Source: Clostridiales bacterium | GTDB taxonomy: Bacteria; Bacillota; Sulfobacillia; CADDZV01 | DNA: 64,000 nucleotides | Assembly: GCA_902812875.1 (NCBI GenBank) | Contig: CADDZV010000001.1 | Span: 62,001 to 126,000 of the forward strand | Direction of reading: 5' to 3' | Shown here: positions 7,772-62,240 of the stretch, piece by piece | How the letters are laid out: each line of letters begins with the position of its first letter | How positions within the stretch are numbered: the stretch's first letter is position 1 | Translations under genes and position numbers: made by a program | Notes under the pieces: model-generated | Database searches by the model: none | What the model was told of the DNA's origin: nothing | Seen by the model: only the letters and a program-made list of their open reading frames with translations

Positions 7772-8941
7772 TTGCAGCCTTTATCCACGCGAGCCACGAG
7801 CGTACCCCGTTCCCCGATCCGCCGCATGTTCGATCTGGCCAGCCAGGTGGACAACCCCATCCGGCTTGAATTGGGAGAGCCAGATTTCCCAACGCCTGAG
7901 CACATCATGCAGGCCGCCGCAGAAGCCATGCGCCGCGGCGCCACGCATTACACGCCGACCGCAGGCACCATGGCCCTGCGCGAGGCCATCGCCGAGAAAC
8001 TTTTGCGCGAGAACGGCATCGTCGTCGACCCGGCCAGCCAAGTGATCGCCACGGTGGGAGCCGTGTCCGCACTGGCCTTGAGCATACAGGTGCTGGTGCA
8101 GGAGGGCGGCGAGGTACTGATTCCCGATCCCGGCTGGCCCAACTATGTTTCACATGTGATCTGGGCAGGCGGTACACCGGTCTATGTACCGCTGCCGGCC
8201 GACAACGGCTTCCACCTGAACCGCGAAATCGTTGCCCGTTACCTCACGCCGCAGACGAGGGCCATCATCATCAACAGTCCGGGCAATCCCACCGGGGCGG
8301 TGTTTACCCAGGAGGAGATCGAAGGCATCGCAGCCTTGTGCGTCGAGCGGGACATCATGCTCATCAGCGACGAGGTCTATGAAAAAATCCTCTTCGACGG
8401 GCACACCCACTACAGCCCCGCCTCCAACCCTGACTTCCGGGACCACGTCATCACGATCAACTCGTTCTCGAAAACGTACGCTATGACCGGCTGGCGGCTC
8501 GGATATGCCGCCGGCCCGGCACCGGTGATCAGCGCCATGACGCTTTTGCAAGAGATTTCCGTCTCATGCCCGAATGCCGCCGCGCAGGAGGCCGGCCGCG
8601 TCGCCCTCCGCGGGCCGCAGGACGCCGTGGCCGACATGGTCCGCCAGTACACGTCAAGGCGCCAGCTTCTGGTGGACGGCCTCAACCAGATCCCGGGCCT
8701 CAGCTGCCGGGCACCCGAGGGGTCGTTCTACGCCTTCGTAAACATTTCACGCTTCGGCCGGGCTGCCCACGTGGCGGAACGGCTCATCCGCGAAGCCCGC
8801 ATCGTCACGGTACCGGGCACCGGTTTTGGGCCCTCCGGGGAAGGCCATGTGCGGCTTTCGTTTGCGACCTCGGAAGAAAACTTGCGGGAAGCCTTGCGCC
8901 GCTTGGCCAGCTGGGTGAAGGCCCAGAAGAAGGATTCATGA
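7772..8941 (+). CDS. Pyridoxal-phosphate aminotransferase, class I/II (AspC-like)
   Basis: A 389-residue fold-type I aminotransferase. It shows the family's NSPGNPTG motif, the DEVYEKILFDG segment with the cofactor-contacting Asp and Tyr, and the PLP lysine in SFSKTYAMTGWRLGY. The C-terminal domain has the substrate-carboxylate Arg in GHVRLSFA. It probably transfers the amino group of aspartate, alanine or an aromatic amino acid; the sequence alone does not say which. The TTG at 7772 has AAGGAGG 8 bases upstream. Its stop overlaps the start of the P1 peptidase gene (ATGA). Confidence 0.92.
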   Translation: MQPLSTRATSVPRSPIRRMFDLASQVDNPIRLELGEPDFPTPEHIMQAAAEAMRRGATHYTPTAGTMALREAIAEKLLRENGIVVDPASQVIATVGAVSALALSIQVLVQEGGEVLIPDPGWPNYVSHVIWAGGTPVYVPLPADNGFHLNREIVARYLTPQTRAIIINSPGNPTGAVFTQEEIEGIAALCVERDIMLISDEVYEKILFDGHTHYSPASNPDFRDHVITINSFSKTYAMTGWRLGYAAGPAPVISAMTLLQEISVSCPNAAAQEAGRVALRGPQDAVADMVRQYTSRRQLLVDGLNQIPGLSCRAPEGSFYAFVNISRFGRAAHVAERLIREARIVTVPGTGFGPSGEGHVRLSFATSEENLREALRRLASWVKAQKKDS

Positions 8942-10062
8942 CGGCATCCACGGCGTGTCCGGCACCTGCCCCGCGCCCGCGGGCAAGATCGTACGGCTTG
9001 GCCATCGGACAGCTGCCGCCCGGACCGTTGAACGCTATCACCGACGTGGCCGGTGTGAGGGTGGGCCACTGCACGCTGTTCCGGGAACCGGACGTGCGTA
9101 CTGGTGTAACCGCCATCCTGCCGCACCCCGGGAATCTCTTCCGGGACAAGGTGGAGGCTGCCATCCACCAGGTTAACGGCTTTGGCAAGCCTACTGGCTT
9201 GGCACAGGTCGCCGAGCTCGGGCAGATCGAGACGCCGATCGTGCTGACGAACACCCTTTCTGTGGGCGTGGCGTTCGATGCCGTGGTACGCTACATGCTC
9301 ATGCACAATCCCGAGATCGGGGTAACGACGGGCACCGTGAACCCCGTGATCTTCGAATGCAACGACGGTTATTTAAACGACATCCGCGGCGGACACGTGA
9401 CTGGGGAGCACGTGTGGGAGGCCATTCATTCGGCCGCCAGCGGCCCGGTACCCAGCGGTGCCGTGGGAGCGGGTACCGGCATGACGGCTTTTGGTTTCAA
9501 GAGCGGCATTGGCACCAGCTCCCGACGAGTGGATACCCGGGCCGGTCAGTTCGCCGTTGGTGTTTTGGTGTTGGCAAACTTCGGCCGGCACACCGACCTG
9601 CGGATTGACGGAGTGCCGGTAGGGCTTGCGCTGGCGGACTGGAAAGACGATCCTGCCACGCCCCCGGGGTCTGTGGTGGTGGTACTGGCAACCGATGCCC
9701 CGCTCGACTCCCGGCAGCTTGGCCGGCTGGCCCGGCGGGCCGCTATCGGGCTCGCCCGCACCGGATCCACGGCATCCAACGGTAGCGGCGATTTTGTGGT
9801 GGCCTTCTCCACTACCCGGCGGACGCCCCACTTTTTTGACTCCCCGCTTCGCACGGTAACGGGGCTCATAGACGATGGCGAAACCACGGGGCTCTTGTAT
9901 GGAGCCGCCATCGAGAGTACCGAGGAAGCCGTGATTGACGCCCTTTTCTGTGCCACCAGCGTGCGGGGCCGGAACCATCACTATGTTCCGGCCCTGCCTG
10001 TAAGTGAGGTTTTGAAAATCATGGCCGCTTACGGCCGGCTGCCCCGGAGCGCAAAGCCGTAG
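8938..10062 (+). CDS. P1 family peptidase (DmpA/BapA-type N-terminal-nucleophile aminopeptidase)
   Basis: A 374-residue member of peptidase family S58 (L-aminopeptidase D-Ala-esterase/beta-peptidyl aminopeptidase). Typical features are the N-terminal NAITDVAGVRVGH, the GAVGAGTGM loop and the GIGTSSR segment around the self-cleavage site that frees the nucleophile of the beta chain. A proline-rich N-terminal extension of about 25 residues precedes the domain. The ATG overlaps the stop of the aminotransferase, so the two are co-translated; a peptidase that releases amino acids next to a transaminase makes sense. Exact substrate unknown. Confidence 0.9.
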   Translation: MTASTACPAPAPRPRARSYGLAIGQLPPGPLNAITDVAGVRVGHCTLFREPDVRTGVTAILPHPGNLFRDKVEAAIHQVNGFGKPTGLAQVAELGQIETPIVLTNTLSVGVAFDAVVRYMLMHNPEIGVTTGTVNPVIFECNDGYLNDIRGGHVTGEHVWEAIHSAASGPVPSGAVGAGTGMTAFGFKSGIGTSSRRVDTRAGQFAVGVLVLANFGRHTDLRIDGVPVGLALADWKDDPATPPGSVVVVLATDAPLDSRQLGRLARRAAIGLARTGSTASNGSGDFVVAFSTTRRTPHFFDSPLRTVTGLIDDGETTGLLYGAAIESTEEAVIDALFCATSVRGRNHHYVPALPVSEVLKIMAAYGRLPRSAKP

Positions 10063-16997: not shown

Positions 16998-17027
16998 ATT
17001 ATACGGACCACGTATCTACATTGTCAA
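16998..17027 (-). promoter_or_regulatory. Consensus sigma-A promoter of the ABC-2 exporter operon
   Basis: On the minus strand a perfect -35 (TTGACA, 17022-17027) and a perfect -10 (TATAAT, 16998-17003) are separated by 18 bases. Transcription would start near 16990, about 28 bases before the GTG of the ATPase. This is the best-matched housekeeping promoter I found in the window. Confidence 0.85.
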
Positions 17028-17178: not shown

Positions 17179-18432
17179 TCAAGGCATAAACTTGAATTTT
17201 CCGTACAGCTGTGAGCCGCGCACAAGGGCGTGCTTGCCGAAGCGGGCACGGATTTCATCTACAACCCGATCCACCTGGCGCCTTCTGACCGCCGCGCCGG
17301 AAGCGTCAAAGTCGAGCAGTTGTTGTTGCCAGTCGGATTCAGCAATCAGGCCGCCCAGTTCCACACCCAGAAGACGCACCGCCCGGCCGGCAGGCAGGTG
17401 GCGGTCCAAGAGCTCGCAGGCAGCACGATAAATCTCGTCCGTGGTGTCCGTCGGCACTGGCAGGGTCTTCGCGTGCGTAAAGTTGCGAAACGCGGGGGTA
17501 CGGATACGGATGCCAACCGTCCGGGCCAGATACCCGTTCTCACGGAGCCGGCCAGCCACCGCATCGCAGAGGCCGAGCAACACCGCCTTCTGCTCGGCCC
17601 GGTCACTGACGTCGTGCGCAAGCGTTGTTGCGTGGCTGAGGGACTTGGCCTGGCGGTCGAGCCGTGCGTCTATGGGTTCGGTGTCATCGCCATGGGCAGC
17701 CGCCCAAATATGCCGGCCGTACTCTCCGAGCTCGGTCTGCAAAACCGACAGATCGGCTGCAGCCAAATCGCCCACGTGCCGTATGCCAAGGGCGTGAAGC
17801 TTGGGGACAGTCTTTGGACCCACCCCCCAGAGCTCGCCCACCGCAAGCGGATATACCCGCGCCGACCAGCCATCGCGATCGAGTATAGTAAGCCCGTCCG
17901 GCTTCTGGAGCTCCGCTGCCATTTTGGCACTGACCTGCGACCAGCCGATGCCTACACTGACGGTCAGGCCGATTTCCGTCCGGATGGCCTGTTTCAGCCG
18001 GATGGCCACCTGTACTGGGTCGTGCCCGAGCGGCCCGAGCGATCCCGTCCAATCAAGAAAGGCCTCGTCGATTGAGGCCGGCACCACGAGCGGAGAAAAC
18101 CGCTGCAGGATGTCATACATCTGATCGCTGATACGCTGATATAACGCGTGGTCAGGTGCCGCCACCACGACGTCCGGCGGCAACAGGCGCCGGGCTTTTC
18201 CAAGCGGCATGCCGGCATGCACAGGCCCCCGGGCCAGGCGTTTGGCTTCGTAGCTCACGGAGAGAATCACGCCGTGACGCTGTCCGGGGTCGCCAGCCAC
18301 GACCACCGGCCGCCCATGCAACTTGGGATCCTCTAACGCCGCACAGGAGGCAAAAAACGCGTTGGCGTCAACCAGGGCAATGGTGCGGTCAGACGTACCA
18401 GTATCCCCCTGCCAAACAAGGTGAAAAAACAC
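17179..18432 (-). CDS. dinB: Y-family translesion DNA polymerase (DinB/UmuC-like)
   Basis: About 400 residues of a Y-family polymerase. The catalytic carboxylates are visible in ALVDANAFFASC and in ASIDEAFLDW, with SYEAKRLARGPVHAGMPLGKAR in the fingers and the helix-hairpin-helix region LWGVGPKTVPKLHALGIRHV. It copies damaged DNA. The start is unclear. GTG codons at 18432 and 18438 lack a ribosome site, and the only good site (AGGGGG, 18405-18410) points to an ACG at 18396, which would begin TSDRTIALVDAN, close to a normal family N-terminus. It lies downstream of the SASP terminator. Confidence 0.88.
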   Translation of the reverse strand: MFFHLVWQGDTGTSDRTIALVDANAFFASCAALEDPKLHGRPVVVAGDPGQRHGVILSVSYEAKRLARGPVHAGMPLGKARRLLPPDVVVAAPDHALYQRISDQMYDILQRFSPLVVPASIDEAFLDWTGSLGPLGHDPVQVAIRLKQAIRTEIGLTVSVGIGWSQVSAKMAAELQKPDGLTILDRDGWSARVYPLAVGELWGVGPKTVPKLHALGIRHVGDLAAADLSVLQTELGEYGRHIWAAAHGDDTEPIDARLDRQAKSLSHATTLAHDVSDRAEQKAVLLGLCDAVAGRLRENGYLARTVGIRIRTPAFRNFTHAKTLPVPTDTTDEIYRAACELLDRHLPAGRAVRLLGVELGGLIAESDWQQQLLDFDASGAAVRRRQVDRVVDEIRARFGKHALVRGSQLYGKFKFMP

Positions 18433-18481: not shown

Positions 18482-18520
18482 ACCCAAAAACACTGGGAGG
18501 AGGCCAAAAGCCTCCTCCCA
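18482..18520 (-). terminator. Intrinsic terminator after the SASP gene
   Basis: A perfect 11-base-pair stem (18494-18504 with 18510-18520) with a five-base loop is followed on the minus strand by GTGTTTTTGGG. It begins 27 bases past the SASP stop. Confidence 0.88.
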
Positions 18521-18546: not shown

Positions 18547-18897
18547 CTACTGCCCCGTGCCTGGTGTCCCGGCATTCTGACCAGCCAGGGCCTGCTCGGC
18601 GATGGCGATCATCCGTTTCACCATCTGGCCGCCGATCGGCCCGCCGATCCTCCCGCCAATCGCGCCGCACTCCCGCGAGGTCATCTCACCCCAGCCGACC
18701 TGCTGGATTTTGGGCAAAAGTCCGAGCTCGGCTGCCACCTCATACTTGTATTTGTCGGTCCGCTGGTCCCAGGCGGCGGGAGTGGCTTCGCTTGGCGGCA
18801 AAGCACCAATCTCGGAAGCCACTTCAAACTTCAAGCGGTCAAGCGAAGGCCGGGCCTGGGGCAGCAGGCTTTCGTTGCCGCGACGGTTGCGTGCCAT
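18547..18897 (-). CDS. Alpha/beta-type small acid-soluble spore protein with duplicated N-terminal motif
   Basis: A 116-residue spore DNA-binding protein. The C-terminal half matches alpha/beta SASPs: GEMTSRECGAIGGRIGG, then GGQMVKRMIAIAEQAL. The N-terminal motif (LKFEVASEIG), which normally occurs once and includes the germination-protease site, appears a second time as YKYEVAAELG about 33 residues later. Usual family length is 60-75 residues. These proteins coat forespore DNA and are degraded at germination. AGGGGGG precedes the ATG, and a strong terminator follows. Confidence 0.88.
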   Translation of the reverse strand: MARNRRGNESLLPQARPSLDRLKFEVASEIGALPPSEATPAAWDQRTDKYKYEVAAELGLLPKIQQVGWGEMTSRECGAIGGRIGGPIGGQMVKRMIAIAEQALAGQNAGTPGTGQ

Positions 18898-19062: not shown

Positions 19063-19962
19063 TCAGACTCGTGCGTCCAATCCGAGCTGTCGCAGCGCCC
19101 CGTCAATGTCCTGCCGTTCGCCGAGAACCTCGTGAAACAGGTCGCCCACTGTGGCCAACCGGGCAGGCATCGTACGTATCGTAAACATCTGTGGGGTAAC
19201 GCGCGGCAGTTCTTCCCAGCGCAGCGGCGCCGACACCGGGGCACCGTCCAGCGGCCGTGGGCTGTAGGGTGCCACGAGCGTTTTGCCGAGCACGTTCTGC
19301 AGGTGGTCCACGTAGAGCTTCCCGCCCCGGCGGGCGACGGTCCTTTCCCGCGTCACGAGCCACGGCACGGAGTCGCGCAGAAGGTCGCCCACTGCCCCCA
19401 CGAACGCGGCCAGGGTAGCGTAGGTGTAGCGAGGCACGACCGGCACATAGATGTGCACACCGGTCGCTCCCGAGGTTTTGGGGAAGCCGCGGAGTCCGAA
19501 TGCGTCTAACACTTGCTTGACGAGCAGGGCCGCCTGCACCGCCTCCGCGAAGCCGGCCGGCGGGTCTGGGTCAAGGTCGATAACGGCAAAGTCGGGAACG
19601 TAGGGACTTTCGGTGCGGCTTAGCCACGGGTGGATCTCGATGACCGCCTGGTTGCCCAGCCACTGCAGCGTGGCCAAGTCCTGGCACAGGATGTACCGCA
19701 CCGCGCGGTCCCCGTGTGCAAAGGTGTAAGTCTTTATCCAGCCAGGCGCGTACGCCGGAGCGTTCTTCTGGTAAAAGCCGCCGGACTGGATGCCGCGCGG
19801 AAACCGGGTGAGCGAAAGGGGCCGGTCGCGAAGATGCGGTAGCATGGCGTCTGCCACGGCGGTGAGGTAAGAAACTAGCTCAGCCTTGGTAATGCCGTCC
19901 CCGGGCCACAAAACCCGGTCCAGATGCGTGAGCTGGACGCGGCGGCTTGACAGGACGCTCAT
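19063..19962 (-). CDS. ligD: LigD-type polymerase/primase domain protein (NHEJ)
   Basis: A 299-residue stand-alone LigD polymerase domain. It has the catalytic metal-binding strand FAVIDLDPDPP, the SGATGVHIYVPV motif with the catalytic His, and RTMPARL near the end. In NHEJ it fills gaps and adds ribonucleotides at broken ends. Its ATG overlaps the ligase stop (ATGA), so both are made together. In most species this domain is fused to the ligase; here it is a separate gene. Confidence 0.93.
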   Translation of the reverse strand: MSVLSSRRVQLTHLDRVLWPGDGITKAELVSYLTAVADAMLPHLRDRPLSLTRFPRGIQSGGFYQKNAPAYAPGWIKTYTFAHGDRAVRYILCQDLATLQWLGNQAVIEIHPWLSRTESPYVPDFAVIDLDPDPPAGFAEAVQAALLVKQVLDAFGLRGFPKTSGATGVHIYVPVVPRYTYATLAAFVGAVGDLLRDSVPWLVTRERTVARRGGKLYVDHLQNVLGKTLVAPYSPRPLDGAPVSAPLRWEELPRVTPQMFTIRTMPARLATVGDLFHEVLGERQDIDGALRQLGLDARV

Positions 19963-20903
19963 TTTTCGCTGCTCCCCGGTGAAAGGACGCAGTCGGAAGG
20001 CAAAAGGTCCGGCCGCAGTCCGGCAAAAGAGGCGTGCCGGATGCGCCCGTCCGGGGTGATCTCGAGATAGCGTACCCGGCAACAGACTTGTGGTTCTACA
20101 TAGACCACCGTACCGTGCGCCTTCAGCTCGGAAGGACGCGGCCCGCGGCCAGGTGCGAAAGGGCTTTGGGCACGGGCCAAAAGCTGTTTCACAACCAGCT
20201 CCTTCTCCCGCTCCCCAAAGCCGGTGCCCACGTAACCCAGGAACCAAAGTCCGTCTTTCTGCCACCCTCCGACGAGTAGGGCCGCAAACGGACCGCCGCC
20301 AGCCGCACTTTCAGTGTAGCCGCAAATCACCGCGTCCAGGTCACGCCATGCCTTGATCTTCAGCCAGTGTGCCGTCCGCCGCCCCGGAAGGTATGGGCTT
20401 GCCAGCTCCTTCGCCATCAGTCCCTCGAGTCCGGCCTGACGGACAGATTCAAAATACTGACGGCCATACTGCTGAATGCCTTCGGAAATCACCAGTGGCG
20501 GCTTTGCCGCCACCCACTGGTGCAAAAGTTCCCGGCGTTGCCAAAGCGGCTTTTCCAGTACGGCCTGGCCATCGACGTACAGGAGATCAAAAGCAACGTA
20601 CGCCACTTGTCCTTCGCCTGCCTGCAAGGCGGAGAAGCTCGGGCGGCCGCGAACAACGGCCACGATCTCGCCATCCAGGATGAGGCGGTGGCCGGCCGCA
20701 TTTTCATGCATCCGGCCCAGGGTGGCAAATCGGTGAGTGATGTCGGCGCCGTGGCGGCTGCGGAGCCTTGTGCGATCGCCCAAAAAGGCCAGCCCCCGGT
20801 AGCCGTCCCACTTGACTTCGAACAGGTGGGCAGGGGAATCAAAAGGCTCCCGGGCTTCCTGGGCCAGCATGGGCAAAAGTCCAGTGTCAAAAAGGTCGCT
20901 CAT
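19959..20903 (-). CDS. ligD: ATP-dependent DNA ligase, LigD ligase-domain type (NHEJ)
   Basis: A 314-residue ATP-dependent ligase. The adenylated lysine lies in motif I (EVKWDGYRG, Lys31). Further nucleotidyltransferase motifs are RSRHGADITHRF, LILDGEIVA, EGLMAKE and WLKIKAWR, and an OB-fold follows. It seals double-strand breaks brought together by Ku. Its ATG overlaps the Ku stop and its own stop overlaps the polymerase-domain start. There is no phosphoesterase domain. Confidence 0.93.
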   Translation of the reverse strand: MSDLFDTGLLPMLAQEAREPFDSPAHLFEVKWDGYRGLAFLGDRTRLRSRHGADITHRFATLGRMHENAAGHRLILDGEIVAVVRGRPSFSALQAGEGQVAYVAFDLLYVDGQAVLEKPLWQRRELLHQWVAAKPPLVISEGIQQYGRQYFESVRQAGLEGLMAKELASPYLPGRRTAHWLKIKAWRDLDAVICGYTESAAGGGPFAALLVGGWQKDGLWFLGYVGTGFGEREKELVVKQLLARAQSPFAPGRGPRPSELKAHGTVVYVEPQVCCRVRYLEITPDGRIRHASFAGLRPDLLPSDCVLSPGSSEK

Positions 20904-21694
20904 GGCGGCGGCAGTGTGCCCCGCCCTTGCAGCTGTGCAACCGACGCCCGCAAGGCTTCGATGAGGTTTGCAAGTGGCACCTCCGGCGAGGGCGGCGGGG
21001 TCAGCACCGCCCGTCCAGCCAATTTGTCTGCCACCAGGTTTTGTAGCGCTTCCCGGTACGTATCATGATAGGCCGCCGGCTGGAACGGCCCCGTCAGGGC
21101 GTCCACTAGCGTCATGGCCAGGCGTTTTTCGTCCGCGCTGAATCCCGCTGCCACATCCACGCCGCGGAGTCCCGCCCATGGCCTGACCTCGTCGGGCCAG
21201 TACATGGTCTCCATCATGAGCACCTGTTCCTGGTAGACGCGCACCGTGGCCAGTGATTCGCGTGCCCGCAATGCCGATCGTGCGATCGCAACCCGAGCGG
21301 AGTCCAGCATGGCGGAACGTAGAAGGGCGTAAGGGCGCTCCCCGCCCTCGGCGGGTTCGAGGAAATATGAACGGTTGTAGTAAACCGGATCGATTTCCGC
21401 GAGGTTTACAAATCCGACGATCCTTATGACCTTGGCCTCTGGCACCGGCAGCGACGCCATTTCGTCACCGGCAACGGGTACGAACCGGCCCGGCTCGTAT
21501 TCGTAAGCATGCACGATTTCCTCGGCTGCCACCGTCCGCTCACAATGATCGCAAAACTTCACGTAACGGATGGGGGTACCGCACGCCGCATGGATGAGCC
21601 GGAGCTTGACGTCATGGTCCTCCGTAGCCGCGTACACGCGCACTGGTATATGAACAAGGCCGAAAGAAATTGCTCCCTTCCAGATGGCTCTCAT
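20900..21694 (-). CDS. ku: Ku family DNA end-binding protein
   Basis: A 264-residue bacterial Ku. It begins with the family signature MRAIWKGAISFGLVHIPVRV and continues with CGTPIRYVKFCDHC and DPVYYNRSYFLEP. Ku forms a ring on broken DNA ends and recruits LigD. No ribosome site is visible before the ATG. The 20 bases between it and ytfJ hold a small perfect hairpin instead (21700-21714), which suggests coupling to ytfJ translation. Confidence 0.96.
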   Translation of the reverse strand: MRAIWKGAISFGLVHIPVRVYAATEDHDVKLRLIHAACGTPIRYVKFCDHCERTVAAEEIVHAYEYEPGRFVPVAGDEMASLPVPEAKVIRIVGFVNLAEIDPVYYNRSYFLEPAEGGERPYALLRSAMLDSARVAIARSALRARESLATVRVYQEQVLMMETMYWPDEVRPWAGLRGVDVAAGFSADEKRLAMTLVDALTGPFQPAAYHDTYREALQNLVADKLAGRAVLTPPPSPEVPLANLIEALRASVAQLQGRGTLPPP

Positions 21695-21699
21695 GACGG

Positions 21700-21714
21700 A
21701 ACCGGCATCCGGTT
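21700..21714 (-). promoter_or_regulatory. Small hairpin between ytfJ and ku
   Basis: AACCGG at 21700-21705 pairs with CCGGTT at 21709-21714 across a three-base loop. It fills the space where the ku ribosome site should be and starts one base inside the ytfJ stop codon. Confidence 0.4.
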
Positions 21715-22269
21715 TTAGACCCGGGGCCGCCGCCGCCGGCGCTCGTGGCGGTCGGCCGTTGAGGAACCTTCCGTCCCAGCACCCGTGGCGTCGGCCGGGC
21801 CGACGTTGGCGTATTCGCCGGCCGGCGTGACCGCGCGGTGGGCGCCTTCCCCGCCGGGCCCGCGATAGGAGTGCCCGTCCCGCCCGGCCTGCCTTGCACT
21901 CCAGAGCTTTCCAAGTTCGCCGAGCAGCTCGGGAGCCATATCCAGCAGGCGTTCGGCGGCCGTGTCATTGTCCACGCCCAGGAAACGTACGCTCTCTTTG
22001 CCCACTACCAAAAAACCGACCGGCTGGATGCTCACCCCACCGCCACTGCCGCCGCCAAACGGCAGTTCGGCCTGGCTGCCGCCCGGCGACGGGGCCGTCT
22101 CGTATTCGCCCCCGCCGGCCGCGAACCCGAAACTGACCCGCGACACGGGCACAATGACATCACCCTGGGGCGTTGCAATGGCGTCCCCAACCACGGTGTT
22201 TACGTCCACCATGTCTCGCAGGTTTTCCATGGCTGTTTTCATCAGCCCCTGAATCGGGCGTTCGCCCAT
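21715..22269 (-). CDS. ytfJ: Sporulation protein YtfJ (GerW family)
   Basis: A 184-residue GerW/YtfJ protein. It starts MGERPIQGLMKTAMENLRDM and has the family core VVGDAIATPQGDVIVPVSRVSFGFAAGG and then a glycine-rich FGGGSGGGVSIQPVGFLVV. GerW is needed for proper spore germination in Bacillus. The C-terminal 60 residues are variable and end in a very basic HERRRRRPRV. GAGGTG precedes the ATG at 22269. The order DUF2953-ytfJ is conserved in Bacillota; the NHEJ genes follow directly. Confidence 0.93.
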   Translation of the reverse strand: MGERPIQGLMKTAMENLRDMVDVNTVVGDAIATPQGDVIVPVSRVSFGFAAGGGEYETAPSPGGSQAELPFGGGSGGGVSIQPVGFLVVGKESVRFLGVDNDTAAERLLDMAPELLGELGKLWSARQAGRDGHSYRGPGGEGAHRAVTPAGEYANVGPADATGAGTEGSSTADRHERRRRRPRV

Positions 22270-22310
22270 GCCGCTCACCTCACGTCTTGGTTTCTGCCGC
22301 CGCCACCACA

Positions 22311-22940
22311 TCAGGCGGCTTGGGTTGCCTTGCTGCTTTTGAAGGCGCGCGCCAGCTGCCAGCTCGCAAACATAATGTGGCCTAATGGCACGAGGGCTAT
22401 TCCTTGGATCGACAAGCCGAACGTGGGCTGGTCCCAAACCGGCAAGACAGAAAACCGCAGGCACGGCGTCTTGCGCGGACGGGTAGCCACGCGGAAATTG
22501 GCGTAGACGAACGCCTGCAACCACCCAAGCATCGTCCAGGCGGTGCCGGCGGCCAAACCGGTGGCAAACGGTTCACCGGTGCCGACCGTGACCACGACAT
22601 CGCCACGAATGATAAATATACGACGGCCGGTGCGCTGGACGACGGCTCGTACCCGGCGCCAGTCAACGCGGCCGCTGGTCTGCCGGGCCTCGTTCCGGAA
22701 GGCACGGAACCATGTCCGTGGATCGCCTGCCCGCGCAGACCACTGGTGTTCCCAGCCAAGCTCGGGCACCCAGTGCAAACGAAAGGCGATGTGGCCTGCG
22801 CCATTTCGCCCATGGCACTGCAACTGCCAGCTCACCCGCACCGGGAGCTGTCCGGCCAAAGCAGCCAGGGCAGTGACGGCGGCCAGCATAAGGAAGAAAA
22901 GAATGAGATCACGCGTGAGACCTGAGGCAGACATAACCAC
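22311..22940 (-). CDS. DUF2953 domain membrane protein
   Basis: A protein of about 209 residues with an N-terminal transmembrane helix (LILFFLMLAAVTALAALAG), basic middle region and C-terminal hydrophobic segments. It fits DUF2953, a sporulation-associated family usually found directly upstream of ytfJ and downstream of scpB, as here. The start is ambiguous: GTG at 22940 has GGGGTG six bases upstream, while ATG at 22934 is slightly further away. Function unknown. Confidence 0.78.
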   Translation of the reverse strand: MVMSASGLTRDLILFFLMLAAVTALAALAGQLPVRVSWQLQCHGRNGAGHIAFRLHWVPELGWEHQWSARAGDPRTWFRAFRNEARQTSGRVDWRRVRAVVQRTGRRIFIIRGDVVVTVGTGEPFATGLAAGTAWTMLGWLQAFVYANFRVATRPRKTPCLRFSVLPVWDQPTFGLSIQGIALVPLGHIMFASWQLARAFKSSKATQAA

Positions 22941-22985
22941 GGACAACACCCCGTCTGCCAGGATGTTGCCACGGGTTTCCAGTAT

Positions 22986-23552
22986 TTATGCAGTCTCGCC
23001 ACCGAGCGGAGGCAGATCCTCCAGGCTGCGGAGGTTGAAGGCGACCAGGAACTCCGTGGTGGTTTCGTAAAGAATGGGGCGGCCCAATGACTGTTTACGA
23101 CCAGCTTCGCGGATCAGGTGGTGTTCGATCAGCGTGTTGATGGCACTTTCGCAGCTCACGCCCCGGATAGCCTCGATCTCGCCGCGGGTTATCGGCTGGC
23201 GGTAGGCAATCACTGCCAGGGTTTCGAGGGCAGGCCCGGAGAGGTGGGCTGTCGGCACCGGCTCCCGCCGGCGATCCACAAACCGGGCAAACTCCGGCCG
23301 CGTGCGTAGCACGTACCCGCCGCCCACTTCGGCCACCTCGAGGGCATGGTGCCCCTGTGCCAAAGCATGGTTGAGCTGCATTGCGAGCACGGGCACCCGC
23401 CCCGGGTCGACCTGCAAAAGGCGTGCCAGCTCGCGGGCCGGCACCGGCTCCGTCGACACGAACAACACGGCCTCCAGCGCCGCCTGCAGCGTAAGATCTG
23501 ACGCCAGCATGCTGTCCGGCAGGTGGTCTGTCTCCGACGAATCGCTACTCAC
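22986..23552 (-). CDS. scpB: Segregation and condensation protein B
   Basis: A 188-residue ScpB with two winged-helix domains. Typical segments are LEAVLFVSTEPVPARELARLL, LSGPALETLAVIAYRQPIT and ETTTEFLVAFNLRSLEDLP near the end. With ScpA and SMC it forms the condensin that organises and segregates the chromosome. The GTG at 23552 overlaps the scpA stop (GTGA) and has GGGAG upstream. Confidence 0.95.
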   Translation of the reverse strand: MSSDSSETDHLPDSMLASDLTLQAALEAVLFVSTEPVPARELARLLQVDPGRVPVLAMQLNHALAQGHHALEVAEVGGGYVLRTRPEFARFVDRRREPVPTAHLSGPALETLAVIAYRQPITRGEIEAIRGVSCESAINTLIEHHLIREAGRKQSLGRPILYETTTEFLVAFNLRSLEDLPPLGGETA

Positions 23553-24325
23553 TGTCCGACGCTCCCTTGTTTGTGCCGCAGCCGCACACGCCACCCCGGT
23601 CCGGGGGCGATCAGAATATCGTCCCCGCGCGGAGATTGCACTACCGTGAGGCGGCCCTGATGTACAAGTTCCAAAAGGGCAAGAAATGCCGCGATTAGAT
23701 ATCGCCTCGGACGCCCCTGGCCGATCACCTCGAAAAAGCGCCCGTGCCCTCCCCGCCTGCGAAGCTCCCGCAGCCAGCTCTTGATCTGGGACAAGATGGT
23801 GGGACGTTCGGGTGTAAGCTCAGCAGGGGGGCTGTCCGCAAGGCGTGATTTGAACGGCCGCAAAGCCAACGCCAGCAGGGCGGCGTTCTGGCCCGGAGCG
23901 AGAAACCTGGCCGGCGGGGCCTCTGGCCGCCCCGACCGGTAGCCGTACTGGCTGCCAGCCAACGCCAAGGCCCGGAAAAGCCGGCCCGCCTCGGAATACC
24001 GCTCGTACTCGGCCAGCCGCCGCGAAAGCTCCTGGCGGGGATCGCCCGCCGCGTCGTCTTCGGCTTGCCCCTTGTCTCCGATCCGCGGAAACAGCATCCG
24101 GGCCTTGATATCAAGCAGGGTGGCGGCCATCACCAGAAACTCGCTGGCGATCTCCAGATCCATTTCCTCCACGGCTGTGAGATACGCCAGATATTGGTCG
24201 GTAATCTGTGCAATGGGAATATCGTAGATGTCGATCTTCTGCGCTCGGATGAGCTGGAGCAACAAGTCCAGCGGCCCTTCGAAGGTCTCCAGCCTGACTT
24301 GCAACTTGGCCGTTGTCAGCATCAT
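23549..24325 (-). CDS. scpA: Segregation and condensation protein A
   Basis: A 258-residue kleisin. The N-terminus shows the classic FEGPLDLLLQLIRAQKIDIYDI followed by FLVMAATLLDIKARML; the C-terminal winged helix follows. It bridges the SMC heads. AGGAGG precedes the ATG pair at 24325. It is co-translated with scpB and preceded by an M50 protease gene, a common order in Bacillota. Confidence 0.96.
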   Translation of the reverse strand: MMLTTAKLQVRLETFEGPLDLLLQLIRAQKIDIYDIPIAQITDQYLAYLTAVEEMDLEIASEFLVMAATLLDIKARMLFPRIGDKGQAEDDAAGDPRQELSRRLAEYERYSEAGRLFRALALAGSQYGYRSGRPEAPPARFLAPGQNAALLALALRPFKSRLADSPPAELTPERPTILSQIKSWLRELRRRGGHGRFFEVIGQGRPRRYLIAAFLALLELVHQGRLTVVQSPRGDDILIAPGPGWRVRLRHKQGSVGQ

Positions 24326-24334
24326 GCCGTCCTC

Positions 24335-24964
24335 CTAAATTCCGGCCACCGCAGCGGCCGCGTGGGCGATCAGGTTGGCAATTCCATTGGCAAGCGGGTT
24401 CAGGAACACGTCCGTGACCCCGAGACGAATCAGCACAAGAATGATGATCCACCCAAATTGTCCGATCTGGTCCATCGCTGCCCTTGCTTCATACGACAGA
24501 AATCCGTATATAGCATGCATTCCATCGAGCGGCGGAATCGGCAACAGGTTAAACGCACCCAGCCATATGTTGTAGCCAAAAATGGTAGACAAAAGTTCCT
24601 GGGCCGGTGCCAAAGCCCCGCGGCCGACGACAATCGCCAGCATAGCCAAAAACGCCAGGAAGAAGTTCATCATGGGACCTGCCAGCGACACATAGGCAAA
24701 GCCAAAGCGCCGGTCGCCCCTGAAGTTGGCCGGGTTTACTTGCACCGGCTTCGCCCAGCCAAATTGGACGATGAGGAGCATCAACAACCCGATCGGGTCA
24801 AGGTGGTGCAGGGGATTGAGGCTGAGCCTGCCCGTGTAGCGAGGTGTACTGTCCCCGAGGCGGTCGGCCACCCAGGCGTGGGCAAATTCATGAAATGTAA
24901 TACCAATAATGAGGGCTACGACGGTATACAAAACCTGCACGGGGCTCGCGCCAAACAGCCACAA
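24335..24964 (-). CDS. Site-2 protease-like M50 membrane metalloprotease
   Basis: A 209-residue membrane protease of the short M50 group. The zinc motif HEFAH lies in the first helix and the third ligand in [10 protein letters not shown], both with intact ligands. About six hydrophobic segments fit. Substrate unknown; neighbours are scpA/scpB, which is a usual context for this group. It begins with TTG at 24964 behind a GGGAGATG region, and its stop is 9 bases from the scpA start. Confidence 0.9.
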
Positions 24965-28821: not shown

Positions 28822-29523
28822 TCACCTCCTGGTGGGGCAGCTGTACGCCCCAGCCTTGCTGTGCCTCAATCCTAGATCGAGAATGGCCTCCAGCAACCCC
28901 AACGCGGCCGCTGTGGGCTCCACCACCGGGATGCCGAGTGCGTGCCGAATTGCCCCGGCTACCGGGGCCATGCCGGTACACCCTAGCACTATGACCTCCG
29001 CACCGTCATTTTCGACGGCAGCCCTGGCCTTTGACGTGATTGCTCGTAACGTGGTTTCGGGGTCGGCATTCAAATCGCGTACATGGATGTCAACCCCTGA
29101 GGCCGAGGCGAGCCGCCCTTCGATGCCAAGGGCACGAGCCTGCCTTTCCGCCCAAGGGCCGCCATTGCGAAAGGTGGAGACCACCGCAAATTTGTGTCCA
29201 AGGGTGCAGGCCAGGAGCATAGAAGCCTCGCCCGGTCCGACCACAGGTATATCCACAAGCTCACGCGAGGCTTCGACGCCGGGATCGGCAAAGCAGTTCA
29301 CCACCACCCCGTCGTATCGCTGGCTGTTTTTCACTACAAGGTCCACTACCATGGGTGCCGCATAGGCTTCGTCGAAAAACGTCTCGATGGACGCCGGTCC
29401 GGCACTCAGACGGACAACATCCACCGCAAAGTCGCCGCCGGCTACAAGTTGCTGCACATAAATGCTGGCCGTTTCGTGGACGGAGGTATCTGTGACAGGG
29501 TTGATGACAAGGATTTTCTTCAT
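28822..29523 (-). CDS. Asp/Glu/hydantoin racemase family protein (second of a pair)
   Basis: A 233-residue two-domain protein of the Asp/Glu/hydantoin racemase superfamily. Both catalytic cysteines are present: VVVNCFADPGV in the N-terminal domain and IVLGCTGMAPV in the C-terminal domain. That supports a two-base racemase or isomerase, as in hydantoin racemase. Its ATG overlaps the stop of its paralog (ATGA), and GGGGGAGGTG lies upstream. Substrate unknown. Confidence 0.88.
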   Translation of the reverse strand: MKKILVINPVTDTSVHETASIYVQQLVAGGDFAVDVVRLSAGPASIETFFDEAYAAPMVVDLVVKNSQRYDGVVVNCFADPGVEASRELVDIPVVGPGEASMLLACTLGHKFAVVSTFRNGGPWAERQARALGIEGRLASASGVDIHVRDLNADPETTLRAITSKARAAVENDGAEVIVLGCTGMAPVAGAIRHALGIPVVEPTAAALGLLEAILDLGLRHSKAGAYSCPTRR

Positions 29524-30281
29524 GGCGACACCTCCCCCGGCACCTGGTTGCCCTGCGGCCAGAGGATGGCAGCAAAGTCCGGACGCCGGTACAGACCAGC
29601 CCGACTGTGGGTCAAACCCAGGTCGATCCACGTTTCCAGCATTTTCAGGGCTGCCGCGGCCGGCTCTACGACAGGCATATCCAGATTTTCCTTAATCCAC
29701 TGAGCCAGCGTGGCCATGCCAGTACAGCCCAAAACGATGACCTCGGCACCGTCCCGGTCACGGGCAAGCCGCGCCTGGGTCAGCGCCGCCTCCACAGTTT
29801 GTCCAGGCTCTTCCAGCAAAGCCACCACTGGGATTTCCAGAGACAGCACTGATGCCAGCCGCGACTCCAGCCCCAGCACCCTGGCCTGCTCCCGGTGTCT
29901 GGGAATCAGGTTTTTCGCCACCGCCAAAACGGCAAACGTGTGCCCGAGCATGGTGGCCAAGATCATGCCACTTTCCCCAGGGCCGGCGACGGGAATATCT
30001 ACCGCTTCGCGAGCCGCGACCACCCCGGGGTCCAGAAAACAGTTGATGAGAATGCCATCGTGGTCGGCAGCACCTTCCCGAACTTGCTGCAAAATCCCTG
30101 GTATGGCCTCGCTCTCGTAGCACGCCCCTTCCAAGGAGACTGGACCATGGTCGAGGCTCACGATATCAACCGTGGTACCGGCCCTGGCCTGACTACGCAG
30201 GTAGGTGACGTCAGACTCGTCCCACTCGGTTGTCCCGACAGGATTCACCACCAATATCCGCCGTGCCCGCAATCGCCTCAC
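29520..30281 (-). CDS. Asp/Glu/hydantoin racemase family protein (first of a pair)
   Basis: A 253-residue paralog of the next gene, again with both cysteines (LINCFLDPGV and IVLGCTGMATL). It starts RRILVVNPVGTTEW. The C-terminal 30 residues are longer than in the partner. The GTG at 30281 overlaps the DUF917 stop (GTGA). Divergence of the pair in the substrate loop after NPV suggests different stereo- or side-chain preference, or a heterodimer. Confidence 0.87.
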   Translation of the reverse strand: MRRLRARRILVVNPVGTTEWDESDVTYLRSQARAGTTVDIVSLDHGPVSLEGACYESEAIPGILQQVREGAADHDGILINCFLDPGVVAAREAVDIPVAGPGESGMILATMLGHTFAVLAVAKNLIPRHREQARVLGLESRLASVLSLEIPVVALLEEPGQTVEAALTQARLARDRDGAEVIVLGCTGMATLAQWIKENLDMPVVEPAAAALKMLETWIDLGLTHSRAGLYRRPDFAAILWPQGNQVPGEVSP

Positions 30282-31399
30282 CTGCCCTGGAATTTCTCTT
30301 CCACCGGCTGCCAGTCATAATCAAAACCAAAAAAGCGAGGAACGAGGATCTCCAATCCGCGCGGCGTGCGCCATTCCCTGGGAGCCGGGAAAGCCAGCAC
30401 GTCCACTTCCATTCCCTTCCTCGCCCGCGGATTGTTGATAGGTCGGCCGGTGCCTTTTTCCAGTACGCAGATCAGGTCGGGCACCGTGACATCTACCACG
30501 CCGTCTCGCCAGCTGATGATATTTTCATTTTTATACCATATTAGGTAATTACTGCCCCGAAACTCGCCGGTACCAGTAATGTTCATTTCCCCGAAAAGAA
30601 AACCACCCCGGTCCTCCCAACTCGGGTCCTGCGCGACCACCCCTTCGAAGACCAGATACCCCCCACCAGCTGTGAGGGTGGCAGCAATTGGGTCTTGGCC
30701 GGCAGCGATCGCCTCCCGCTTGGCCCGGCCGACCTTTTCTGCATAGGAGAGAGCTCCTTTGATGACCGCGCCGTTCTTGAGATCGCGACCGCGGGTGGGA
30801 TGGTCCGCGGTGGCCACCATACCGCCGCTCGCTACAGCCACGGCCCGCACGATGTCTTCGGCCCGGAAATCGTCGGCTACGCCTGCCAGCACCATCGTCT
30901 CCCCAAACCGCGTGGCCAGGCCTATAGGATCAATGCGTTGGCCATACACGTAATAGGTAGAAAACTGCAGGTCCGGCACGGCGCGTCCCGCGGCATCAGC
31001 GTCCAGAACGGGAATGCCAGCCCGTGCCGCCACCGCGAGAGCGGCGGCCGTATTCATGCCACCGTACTCGATCGACACGGTGGCCGACATAGCCTGCCCC
31101 AGGGCATCTTCCAAGGCTCGCATGGCCAGATAAGGTTCCGGTTCAGACACGCGTGGCAAGGAGACAAAACGGGCCTCTCTTTCAGGCGGGACGGGGGCAG
31201 TCGAACCCGTGAAGTAGGGAGAACAGGCCAAGTCGGAGTCGCCAAGCTCATCGAGATCCATCAGGAAAAACCGCCGGCCAGCTTCCCACTGGGACCGCAC
31301 CATGGCCAAGCCGCGGGCAGGATCTCCGCCACCACCCGTGCCCAGGGTGGTGGCGCCTTCCAGGATGTCTTCAATCGCACGCAGGTCAAGCTCTCTCAT
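30278..31399 (-). CDS. DUF917 family protein (second of a pair)
   Basis: A 373-residue DUF917 protein (family PF06032, some members of which are described as S-methyl thiohydantoin desulfurase). It opens MRELDLRAIEDILEGA and has the glycine motif LGTGGGGDP, then DADAAGRAVPDLQFST and a C-terminal beta domain (SWRDGVVDVTVPDLICVLE). Its ATG overlaps its paralog's stop (ATGA). Proteins of this family often neighbour hydantoinases and racemases. The reaction here is unproven. Confidence 0.85.
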   Translation of the reverse strand: MRELDLRAIEDILEGATTLGTGGGGDPARGLAMVRSQWEAGRRFFLMDLDELGDSDLACSPYFTGSTAPVPPEREARFVSLPRVSEPEPYLAMRALEDALGQAMSATVSIEYGGMNTAAALAVAARAGIPVLDADAAGRAVPDLQFSTYYVYGQRIDPIGLATRFGETMVLAGVADDFRAEDIVRAVAVASGGMVATADHPTRGRDLKNGAVIKGALSYAEKVGRAKREAIAAGQDPIAATLTAGGGYLVFEGVVAQDPSWEDRGGFLFGEMNITGTGEFRGSNYLIWYKNENIISWRDGVVDVTVPDLICVLEKGTGRPINNPRARKGMEVDVLAFPAPREWRTPRGLEILVPRFFGFDYDWQPVEEKFQGR

Positions 31400-32511
31400 G
31401 CCGACTTCCTGCCCTCCTCGAGCGGCGTGTACTTCCGCTCCACTCCCGCATAGGCCGGGCCAAAGATCGAGAGGCCTTTCTCTGTACGCCAGACTGGTGC
31501 CGCCGGCATACCAATGATGGTCACGGGTTGGCCTTCGCGGGCAGCCGGGTTCAAGATGGGATCGCCGGTAGTAGCATCAAACATGCAGATTAGATCCGGC
31601 ACAGTCACATCCACCTGTCCGTCACGCCAAGATGCCATGTGCTCATTCTTGAACCTAATGCGATACTCGGAGCCGTGGTCTGGCCCTGTGCCTTTTACCA
31701 CCACTTCCCCGACCGTGAAACCGCCCTCGTCCTTCCACCACGCTTCAGAAACCACCCCGCTGAAAAGGCGAAATCCGCCGCCGGCCTGGCAAACAGCTCC
31801 TACCGGATCGGCACCGTCCGCCTTGGCCTGCCGCCACGCCGCCCCCACTTTCGCCGCATGTGAAATGGCGCCTTCCACGACCTTGCCGCGTAACGACGCA
31901 GCCGTGGTGGGATGGTCAGCCACCCCCACATGGTTTTGGCTCACCACCGCCATCGCCCGGACCAGCGCCTCCGCACGGCCATCGTTGGCCACCTTTTGGA
32001 TGACCGCCACATCCCCGAACTGGTTGGCCACCGCCAACGGCGCAATCGAAATACCACCCAGGTATAGGGTAGAGTGGACGAGCTCCGGCACCGCCCGGCC
32101 AGCCGGGTCGGCGTCCAACACAGGAACCCCTAGGTGGGCAGCCGTACTTAGAGCAGTAGCGGTGTTGCCGCCTCCGAGTTCCGTTGCCAAGACGGCTCCT
32201 ACCGGGGTCTGCAGGTAAGCCGCTAATGCCCGCGCCGCCACGAGCGGCGGTTCGTCAGGGATACGAGGCAGATGCTCATAGGCCTTTATCTGTTCCGGCG
32301 ACAAGGGCGACACGGATCCCGCATAGTACGGCGAGACCACCAGCGTGTCGTCTGCCAGCTCCGAAAGGGCTGCCAGCGTCACCGTTTTTCCGGCCGCGGC
32401 GTCTTGCCGCACGGTTCTCAGTCCACGTTCGAGGCTGCCGCCCCCGCCGGTGCCCAAGATCGCACATCCTACCAGGATGTCCTCCAACTCCTGCAGTGTC
32501 AGCTCACGCAT
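31396..32511 (-). CDS. DUF917 family protein (first of a pair)
   Basis: A 371-residue paralog of the following gene with the same motifs: MRELTLQELEDILVGC, LGTGGGGSLERGL, LDADPAGRAVPELVHST, ASWRDGQVDVTVPDLICMFD. AACGGAGG precedes the ATG at 32511; the upstream extension to 32661 overlaps dppF and is rejected. A 68-base gap separates it from dppF, the widest gap in the catabolic half of the operon, so an internal promoter is possible but I see no consensus. Confidence 0.86.
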   Translation of the reverse strand: MRELTLQELEDILVGCAILGTGGGGSLERGLRTVRQDAAAGKTVTLAALSELADDTLVVSPYYAGSVSPLSPEQIKAYEHLPRIPDEPPLVAARALAAYLQTPVGAVLATELGGGNTATALSTAAHLGVPVLDADPAGRAVPELVHSTLYLGGISIAPLAVANQFGDVAVIQKVANDGRAEALVRAMAVVSQNHVGVADHPTTAASLRGKVVEGAISHAAKVGAAWRQAKADGADPVGAVCQAGGGFRLFSGVVSEAWWKDEGGFTVGEVVVKGTGPDHGSEYRIRFKNEHMASWRDGQVDVTVPDLICMFDATTGDPILNPAAREGQPVTIIGMPAAPVWRTEKGLSIFGPAYAGVERKYTPLEEGRKSA

Positions 32512-32579
32512 GTTGAAACCTCCGTTTCCACTTGGAATCACGATTTCCATGTGCACGGTATCGGCCCTTACACCCAACT

Positions 32580-33557
32580 TCATGTTCCATGGCCGGCCAG
32601 ATGGCAGGCCACCCAGTGTCCGCCTCCCCCGTCCGCAAGGACCGGAGCCTTTTCCCGACACACGGGCCGCCGGACAGGGCAGCGGGAATAAAAGCGGCAG
32701 CCCGTGGGAGGATCGACGGCGCTGGGGACGTTGCCTTCGAGGACGATCTCCCGGCCGCGCTGGCCAGGATCAGGGACCGGCACTGCCGACAAAAGAGCCT
32801 GGGCATATGGGTGCCACGGATGGGATAGGATCTCCGCCGCCGGTCCCCGCTCCACGATCTGCCCAAGATACATGACGGCGACCTCGTCCGCCATGTGCTC
32901 TACTACGCTAAGGTCATGCGATATCAGCAGATAACTCAAACCGAGGCGGGCTTGCAGGTCTTTCAGCAGGTTAAGGATCTGGGCCTGCACAGAAACGTCC
33001 AAAGCTGACGTAGGCTCGTCCAGCACGAGAAATTTGGGGTGTAACGCGAGCGCCCTGGCAATCACCACGCGCTGGCGCTGCCCTCCGCTGAACTCGTGCG
33101 GAAAGCGGTAGATGTGGCTCGCGTCTAGGCCCACCTCAGCCAGCAGTGCAGCGACCTGGTCGTCCAGCTCCCTGCCCCCGAGGTGCAGGTGGGTACGCAG
33201 AGGCTCGGCCACGATGTCTCTCACCGTGATGCGTGGATCGAGCGCGGAATAAGGGTCCTGGAAGACTATCTGCATGTCCCGCCGCACAGCACGCAGGGCC
33301 TGGTAGTTGAGCTTGAGGATGTCCCGACCCTCGAAATAGATCTCCCCGGCCGTGGCTGGGAGGAGCCTGAGGATAACCCTTCCCAGCGTGGTCTTCCCAC
33401 ACCCGGATTCCCCGGCTATCCCAAGTGTTGTGCCCGGGGCGTCTATCCGCAGGTCTACGCCGTCCACGGCATGTAACCAGGAGGTAGCCCCGCCCCACCA
33501 TGTGCGGCGGACCGGGAAATATTTCTTCAGCCCGCGGACTTCCAATAGCGGTGGCAT
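32580..33557 (-). CDS. dppF: Dipeptide/oligopeptide ABC importer ATPase DppF
   Basis: A 325-residue ATPase of the peptide importer class. Walker A GESGCGKTT, signature EFSGGQRQR and Walker B FLVLDEPTSALD are intact. The C-terminal oligopeptide extension with a Cys-rich GCRFYSRCP segment, likely an iron-sulfur site in this class, is present. The ATG at 33557 is behind GGAGAGG and sits just after the dppD stop; ATG 33575 is the alternative. Confidence 0.92.
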   Translation of the reverse strand: MPPLLEVRGLKKYFPVRRTWWGGATSWLHAVDGVDLRIDAPGTTLGIAGESGCGKTTLGRVILRLLPATAGEIYFEGRDILKLNYQALRAVRRDMQIVFQDPYSALDPRITVRDIVAEPLRTHLHLGGRELDDQVAALLAEVGLDASHIYRFPHEFSGGQRQRVVIARALALHPKFLVLDEPTSALDVSVQAQILNLLKDLQARLGLSYLLISHDLSVVEHMADEVAVMYLGQIVERGPAAEILSHPWHPYAQALLSAVPVPDPGQRGREIVLEGNVPSAVDPPTGCRFYSRCPVRRPVCREKAPVLADGGGGHWVACHLAGHGT

Positions 33558-61498: not shown

Positions 61499-61574
61499 GC
61501 CCCTTCACCTCGGAGGCATCCGCAAATGAACGGCGGCGAGATTACGGGGTTAGTCTGGCTGCGGGAAGTTGGAT

Positions 61575-62240
61575 TTATGCCATACGGAGAAGGCGCTGGA
61601 GAAAAGCGAGTGCTTCGTGTTCAAGGCGGGAAACGTGGGCTTGCGAGATGCCAAGGCGGCGCGCGACCTCCTGCTGGCTCATTTCGCGGAAAAAACGGCT
61701 CACGATGACAAAACGCTGGCGGGCTGGCAGGGTCATCACAGCCTGGCGTACAGCCAGCCGATCAAGCCAGCTGTCCGTTCCAGGGGCAGGAACCGTCGCG
61801 TCAAGGTAGTCCACGAGCTCACCGGGATCAAGGCCGAGCTGCCGAGCCAGTTCACGCACCCCGGGTGGCCTGCCACCATCAGGGATGGCTGCCGAGGTAC
61901 GCAAGAACCACCGCGACGCCGTGGCGGCAGCGGCGGTACGGCGGCGGCCCCAGATTTCCTCCTGCTCGGTACGGGCACACTGGCGCACCGCCCCCATGAT
62001 GAATGGCAACGCGTAGGTGGAAAACCGTACTCCCCGCGCAGGGTTAAACCTTGCCAGCGCCTCGAAAACGCCCACATAGCCAGCCTGGACAAGGTCTTCG
62101 CGTACAATGCCCCCGGCGAACCTTCTCGCCACGGCGCGCACGAGATCAGCCAGGGCGGCGGCCAAGGCTTCGCGGGCCGCGTTGTCTTGGGCCTGTGCCC
62201 TTTGGACAAGCTCAGAGCTGACGCCGTCGCTTTCGTTCAT
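61575..62240 (-). CDS. sigF: RNA polymerase sporulation sigma factor SigF
   Basis: A 221-residue sigma factor of the SigB/F/G group. Region 2 has EDLVQAGYVGVFEALARFNP and FSTYALPFIMGAVR; region 4 the HTH MSQQEVARRLGISQAHVSRLE. It directs early forespore transcription. Overlaps spoIIAB by four bases (ATGA). Identification rests on the spoIIAA-spoIIAB context. The N-terminus is shorter than in Bacillus (about 255 residues). Confidence 0.94.
   Translation of the reverse strand: MNESDGVSSELVQRAQAQDNAAREALAAALADLVRAVARRFAGGIVREDLVQAGYVGVFEALARFNPARGVRFSTYALPFIMGAVRQCARTEQEEIWGRRRTAAAATASRWFLRTSAAIPDGGRPPGVRELARQLGLDPGELVDYLDATVPAPGTDSWLDRLAVRQAVMTLPARQRFVIVSRFFREMSQQEVARRLGISQAHVSRLEHEALAFLQRLLRMA

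Follow-up and report, generated by a model that had tools for sequence, protein, structure and literature searches.

The stretch of DNA analysed here (the window) comprises 64,000 nucleotides of a Clostridiales bacterium of the class Sulfobacillia, phylum Bacillota (contig CADDZV010000001.1, positions 62,001 to 126,000 of the forward strand), and encodes a bacterial non-homologous end joining (NHEJ) system directly behind the sporulation gene ytfJ (Table 1). All genes of the locus lie on the reverse strand, in the order M50 peptidase, scpA, scpB, DUF2953, ytfJ, ku, ligL, ligP and a small acid-soluble spore protein (SASP) gene, followed by a terminator and dinB. An earlier note on this sequence had described Ku, the ligase and the polymerase as three overlapping genes 20 nt behind ytfJ, with a SASP gene after them, and both the coordinates and the profile scores agree with this description: ytfJ and ku are 20 nt apart, ku and ligL overlap by 4 nt, as do ligL and ligP, and 165 nt separate ligP from the SASP gene. 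Only the end of the segment marked in that note needs adjusting, as position 22269 falls 3 bases inside ytfJ, which starts at 22272. The products of ytfJ, ku, ligL and ligP exceed the curated NCBIfam cut-offs, whereas DUF2953 and the SASP are identified by Pfam matches only; the SASP has no NCBIfam match and is assigned to the alpha/beta type by its PF00269 score. The Ku model covers residues 2-252 of the product, i.e., the full-length Ku_bact family, and this is the single Ku match in the genome.

Table 1. Features of the ytfJ-ku locus and of the forespore genes elsewhere in the window (window coordinates)
Feature	Coordinates	Strand	Evidence
M50 peptidase, first gene of the conserved cluster	24335..24964	-	PF02163 6.7e-14
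scpA	23549..24325	-	PF02616 3.2e-29
scpB	22986..23594	-	PF04079 7e-52
DUF2953 (ytfI-like), promoter in its 3' end	22311..22949	-	PF11167 4.6e-5, 23.9 bits (cut-off 22)
Predicted forespore (sigma-F-like) promoter	22373..22402	-	-35 GAATA (22402-22398), 15 nt, -10 GGCCACATTA (22382-22373)
ytfJ (gerW)	21715..22272	-	TIGR02874 170 bits, 2.4e-50 (cut-off 116.3); PF09579 1.5e-27
ku	20900..21694	-	TIGR02772 274.6 bits, 7.6e-82 (cut-off 150); PF02735 1.1e-48
ligL, stand-alone NHEJ ligase	19959..20903	-	TIGR02779 243 bits, 3.8e-72 (cut-off 227.75); PF01068, PF04679
ligP, stand-alone LigD-type primase-polymerase	19063..19962	-	TIGR02778 264.7 bits, 8.2e-79 (cut-off 214.7); PF21686 1.3e-88
alpha/beta-type SASP, doubled N-terminal half (LKFEVASEIG, YKYEVAAELG)	18547..18897	-	PF00269 88.6 bits, 2.7e-25, two stretches (cut-off 22)
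Intrinsic terminator after the SASP gene	18494..18520	-	12-bp stem, 8 G-C pairs, T-rich tail; fold z -3.86
sigF-like sigma factor, candidate reader of the ytfJ promoter	61575..62240	-	TIGR02980 9e-40, TIGR02885 9e-37, both under cut-off
Sigma-G-type site at the end of the sigF-like gene	61550..61582	-	TGGCATAA-N16-CCAGACTAA; 19.1 bits, 0/500 shuffles

The ligase contains the motif KWDGYR and the polymerase the motifs DLDPDP and SGATGVH, which we take to be the catalytic motifs of the two enzymes. The system lacks a conventional LigD, in which the ligase (LIG), polymerase (POL) and phosphoesterase (PE) domains form one protein: here LIG and POL are encoded in two separate genes, and PE (PF13298) has no match in the genome. 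Across the class, PE was matched in 12 of 154 genomes. Ku with LIG and POL in different proteins, with or without PE, is what PMC7719229 defines as non-conventional NHEJ, which is over-represented in Firmicutes; the system of the window is of this kind and has no PE. The earlier note's remark that the domains are unfused is thus correct for the window, but the trait is not special. Fused forms also occur. In locus L036 (DAHVAF010000221.1, positions 8001-9908), Ku and a LigD-type polymerase share one frame directly behind ytfJ (Pfam Ku at residues 11-172, PF21686 at 359-611), and LigL had no match within the 16.8 kb of this locus. Unlike the split genes of the window, those of two loci of family f4 (L127 of genome G003 and L141 of G059) have ligase and polymerase fused in a LigD-like frame beside ku.

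The window scan listed neither a sigma-70-like promoter nor a terminator in the 20 nt between ytfJ and ku, the pair of signals that the earlier note had named as evidence against a common transcript. Weak terminator-like matches occur within ku (21683-21660 and 21387-21372) and ligL (20805-20787), each with 3 G-C pairs; the whole scan returned 18 such sites vs 10.5 in shuffles. A sigma-70-like match at 9 of 12 positions lies inside ligL (20728-20700), one of 3 found vs 1.8 expected. The gap itself contains a perfect 6-bp inverted repeat, AACCGG ATG CCGGTT (21700-21714), without a run of T and different from the RNA fold predicted for the gap, and no ribosome-binding site is evident by eye in front of ku.

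The association of ytfJ with ku extends across the class. Ku was matched in 125 and YtfJ in 132 of the 154 class genomes; YtfJ positions were usable for 130 genomes, and 120 have both proteins. In 95 of these 120, ytfJ precedes ku on the same strand by less than 1 kb, and in 8 more by 1.4-4.4 kb. The remaining 17 have the two genes on different contigs, some of them at contig ends, and five further genomes have Ku but no YtfJ match. The comparison of gene order in relatives, which the earlier note had suggested, thus shows a class-wide adjacency, and the arrangement of the window is more than chance. The ytfJ-ku gap has a median of 27 nt in 38 fetched loci, among them L038 and the window, and is at most 60 nt in 25 of these. 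Where a gene intervenes it is, in G025, a D-Ala-D-Ala carboxypeptidase (Pfam), and a carboxypeptidase-like gene also stands behind ytfJ in G002, G044 and G057 by the look of the sequence. The genes scpA-scpB are upstream in most fetched loci, and the M50 peptidase gene precedes scpA in many relatives as well. The adjacency differs outside the class: Ku was found in 164 of the 288 genomes sampled from the rest of the phylum, and none of the 110 with both places listed had ytfJ and ku within 3 kb (28 pairs share a contig, the nearest 22 kb apart, and 82 are on different contigs).

The best candidate for a promoter of this unit lies ahead of ytfJ, in the 3' end of the DUF2953 gene. In the window it agrees with 10 of 11 sigma-F consensus positions, one of 6 such matches on both strands of the window, and a ytfJ profile trained without the window scores it at 17.1 bits (shuffle P 0.0005), a value that 2 of the window's 426 tiles of 300 bp attain; a test over 150 bp gave P 0.002. 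We compared 43 ytfJ upstream regions: 40 from class loci, that of the window, and those of two named records of unchecked class, L036 and L038. At least 10 of 11 sigma-F positions are matched in 22 of the 43, nine of them perfectly (0.5 in shuffles), and in none of 242 regions upstream of ku, ligL, ligP, scpA, scpB and M50. A second profile, which resembles the sigma-G type, was learnt on 73 distinct SASP upstream regions (loci from 61 genomes). With it, 63 of the 73 reach at least 8 bits in five-fold cross-validation (13% in shuffles), with the caveat that learning on shuffled input gave 41-48 expected sites vs 64.5 with the real one. It reaches at least 7 bits in 31 of the 43 ytfJ regions vs 3.8 expected, and in none of those upstream of ligL (0/47), ligP (0/47), scpA (0/30), scpB (0/34) or M50 (0/31). 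The sigma-F consensus in turn reaches 10 positions in 16 of 76 SASP regions.

Most ytfJ sites fall in a single frame of DUF2953, and in motif learning shuffled sequences, too, yielded 24-30 expected sites of 42, vs 37 for the real ones. We therefore rejected a plain motif count upstream of ytfJ as sole evidence, and made a codon test on a protein alignment of 35 loci and 192 columns (8 of the 43 were dropped for want of a DUF2953 match beside ytfJ). At the last A of the -35 element, the third codon base is A in 26 of 35 loci vs 5.7 expected (z 10.2), and at a T of the -10 element it is T in 25 of 34 vs 5.9 expected (z 9.1). These two outstanding columns are 24 nt apart, and the next best of the 192 has a z of 4.7. 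Isoleucine codons at the -35 column are ATA in 23 of 23 cases, vs 44 of 281 elsewhere in the same genes, and the -10 T is kept in codons for Ile, Ala, Val and Leu alike. When each family label contributes a single row (26 rows, with L036 as a row of its own), A is found in 22, T in 20 and both in 19; the window has ATA and ATT. The promoter in the 3' end of DUF2953 is thus constrained at the DNA level, apart from the conservation of the protein.

The same promoter is found beyond the class. In 20 ytfJ loci picked from the listing outside it, DUF2953 is upstream of ytfJ in all 20, and the ytfJ site has P<0.05 in 16 and P<0.01 in 13, which indicates that this is the promoter of ytfJ and that it predates the linkage with ku. 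These 16 loci share the gene pair and promoter type of the known sigma-F pair ytfI-ytfJ, which has dacF behind ytfJ; in the present class, ku-ligL-ligP follow ytfJ instead. Sigma-F and sigma-G motifs are alike (PMC3789822), and the -10 of the ytfJ site taken alone resembles a sigma-E -10 listed in PMC3416734. As a candidate for the factor that reads the site, we favour sigma-F over sigma-G and sigma-E: the G of the -35 is conserved, and B. subtilis ytfJ and ytfI are both listed among the sigma-F genes (PMC3097244; PMC3416734 also lists ytfJ).

In the window, the 160 nt before ku have no forespore-type site (score -7.6, P 0.94). Some ku genes that are not next to ytfJ have one. Family f37 consists of seven genomes with ytfJ on another contig and one without a YtfJ match, and in all eight the best forespore-type match is found 17-21 nt ahead of ku (P<0.05 in 5). 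G086 (family f43) and G075 (f42) have one 17 nt before ku, with P 0.010 and 0.107, respectively. These counts leave out G096, for want of enough upstream sequence, and the linked genomes G108 and G143, which have no site (P 0.75 and 0.38). Outside the class, 8 of 40 ku genes have a site of their own with P<0.05 and 3 with P<0.01, a weak excess.

The distribution of Ku follows that of sporulation. Taking SpoIIIAE as the marker, and counting per genome with shared descent ignored, Ku is present in 91 of the 99 high-quality class genomes with SpoIIIAE and in none of the 11 without it (Fisher 1.8e-10). Among all class genomes the counts are 122 of 136 and 3 of 18, the three being 71-81% complete. 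In the phylum sample they are 170 of 246 vs 4 of 53 (2e-17), the four being G171, G225 and G226 (72-84% complete) and G249 (98%). As a control, LexA was found in 98 of the 99 high-quality class genomes with SpoIIIAE and in 8 of the 11 without it, one of the eight being a weak match below cut-off. Families f4, f5, f25, f35 and f46 contain genomes lacking both Ku and SpoIIIAE next to relatives that have retained the two; in f35 this is G144, assembled in 630 contigs. All four Ku-bearing genomes of f4 have ku and ytfJ on different contigs, so the joint absence in that family need not be one deletion. Three f4 genomes without SpoIIIAE and Ku (G029, G097 and G100) carry the PE family PF13298.

Together, the adjacency, the constrained promoter, the absence of comparable site excesses before ligL, ligP, scpA, scpB and M50, and the lack of Ku where sporulation is lacking support the earlier note's suggestion that these genes are read from a sporulation transcript. 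We consider it likely, with a probability of about 0.72, that the NHEJ genes of this class, in most genomes without PE, are part of a sporulation transcription unit expressed in the forespore. An old forespore promoter would drive ytfJ, and transcription, by sigma-F and perhaps also sigma-G, would read through into ku-ligL-ligP. The three NHEJ proteins would then be produced in the forespore at a time when it contains one chromosome and no template for recombination, and they might act in the spore or at outgrowth. The individual parts are ordinary; their arrangement is class-wide and is tied both to the trait of sporulation and to a promoter constrained in its DNA. To the question why certain bacteria retain error-prone end joining, a one-chromosome compartment would give a testable answer in a phylum where Ku follows sporulation; the promoter, the putative transcript and the lineages without both Ku and sporulation are now named. 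A broader proposal, which we put forward tentatively, is that NHEJ in Bacillota is essentially a sporulation module kept almost only with endospores. In this class it may be expressed early, under sigma-F, during chromosome transfer to the forespore, in contrast to the later, sigma-G-dependent expression in Bacillus.

Several observations weigh against forespore expression from the ytfJ promoter. The site in the window has one mismatch in the -35, and the SASP-derived profile scores it at 5.5 bits, which is not significant (P 0.13). Across the 43 loci, 21 have fewer than 10 of the 11 consensus positions, and the lowest scores with the ytfJ profile (L120, L131, L149, L117, L162 and L132) range from -1.8 to 9.2 bits. 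The SASP gene of the window has no significant forespore site of its own (P 0.46), and in f4 only one of four ku genes has a significant match, 103 nt from the start. Fourteen class genomes have SpoIIIAE but no Ku, and the LexA control leans the same way as Ku (P 0.003), through family f7 and G144. Finally, scpA-scpB are upstream, and a vegetative transcript starting there could carry ku. This last point underlies the main rival explanation, in which ku-ligL-ligP are read mainly with scpA-scpB from an upstream housekeeping promoter and have a vegetative role with chromosome organisation, the ytfJ promoter serving ytfJ alone. Family f16 speaks for it: in G015, G036 and G052, which have SpoIIIAE, ku directly follows scpB, YtfJ has no match, and none of the three shows a significant forespore site ahead of ku. 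We nevertheless regard it as unlikely, since Ku is missing from all 11 high-quality class genomes without SpoIIIAE, those of f4 included, a family whose four Ku-bearing genomes have ku and ytfJ on different contigs. Most of the 11 keep LexA. In addition, a scan of the window with a simple consensus, which can miss such sites, listed no sigma-70-like promoter ahead of scpA or M50.

It is less probable still that the neighbourhood is merely inherited, without regulatory meaning, and that ku has promoters of its own that mostly escaped recognition. Gene clusters can persist by descent, and the Ku tree (66 rows, 25 of 63 inner branches open) does not show whether the linkage is ancestral and is too weakly resolved to date it. 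Besides f37, there is a small excess of sites before ku itself, at 7 bits or more in 9 of 53 regions vs 3.4 expected with the SASP profile (3 of the 53 are from Clostridia outside the class), which also counts against the preferred explanation. On the other hand, the window has neither a sigma-70-like promoter in the ytfJ-ku gap nor a forespore-type site before ku, short gaps prevail among the fetched loci, and Ku is missing where sporulation is missing. That the ytfJ promoter merely mirrors a protein motif conserved at the C-terminus of DUF2953 would fit the shared frame and the yield of shuffled learning, but A and T at the third positions far exceed each locus's own codon usage and the T is spread over four residues, which makes this reading very improbable. 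We thus retain transcription from the ytfJ promoter as the preferred explanation.

In B. subtilis, ligase and polymerase are united in one LigD protein. The ykoV (ku) and ykoU (ligD) genes are turned on in the forespore under sigma-G and SpoVT (PMC4245934). Forespore expression is likewise proposed for the genes described here, but these are split and stand behind ytfJ and an apparently sigma-F-like promoter, so the timing may differ. The gene ykoV has also been counted as a sporulation gene in a survey of gut phages (PMC10294663). The large survey of PMC7719229 relates the presence of NHEJ to growth rate, G+C content and genome size, and points out that it also occurs in non-spore-formers. 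Its analysis of Ku-LigD neighbourhoods takes in only LigD with three domains in one protein, and its accessible text mentions NHEJ in B. subtilis sporulation and gives no linkage to ytfJ. Relative to the open-access literature, split NHEJ and sigma-G-controlled ku are already known, and the gene order, the promoter and the co-loss are new.

The unit of the window may run on to the SASP gene, whose product would protect DNA, and stop at the strong terminator behind it. In the window, no terminator was listed for the ligP-SASP interval, so the SASP gene may share the transcript, which would then end at 18494. A SASP gene lies at most 400 nt behind ligP on the same strand in 7 of 56 compared loci, the window included (families f1, f5 with three loci, f13, f24 and f40). 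The N-terminal half is doubled in the open frame of five of these, and L161 and L162 have one copy. Further SASP genes behind ligP are 1.3 kb (L154) and 4.3 kb (L155) away. A short SASP-like gene on the opposite strand overlaps or abuts the end of ligP in L156 (1392-1583), L158, L165 and L143 (7948-8265); the Pfam matches of those in L156 and L143 are below cut-off. Directly after the SASP terminator of the window comes dinB (DNA polymerase IV, 17179-18420), without a significant forespore site.

Elsewhere in the window, the sigF-like gene sits behind a dacF-like gene (under cut-off), spoIIAA (under cut-off) and spoIIAB (over cut-off). The sigma-G-type site at its end, which serves as an in-window comparison, precedes a dodecin-like gene and spoVAC-AD-AE. 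With this block the organism carries the forespore switch, and SpoIIIAE and further SASPs are on other contigs of the genome. Two nucleoside-gate genes (PF07670) farther off in the window look like spmA and spmB, and a pseudouridine synthase gene lies farther off as well. Two neighbouring genes of the S-Me-THD family occur near an Asp/Glu racemase gene (28825-32661), and the start of an ATP-binding cassette (ABC) transporter gene has a perfect TTGACA-N18-TATAAT (16998-17027).

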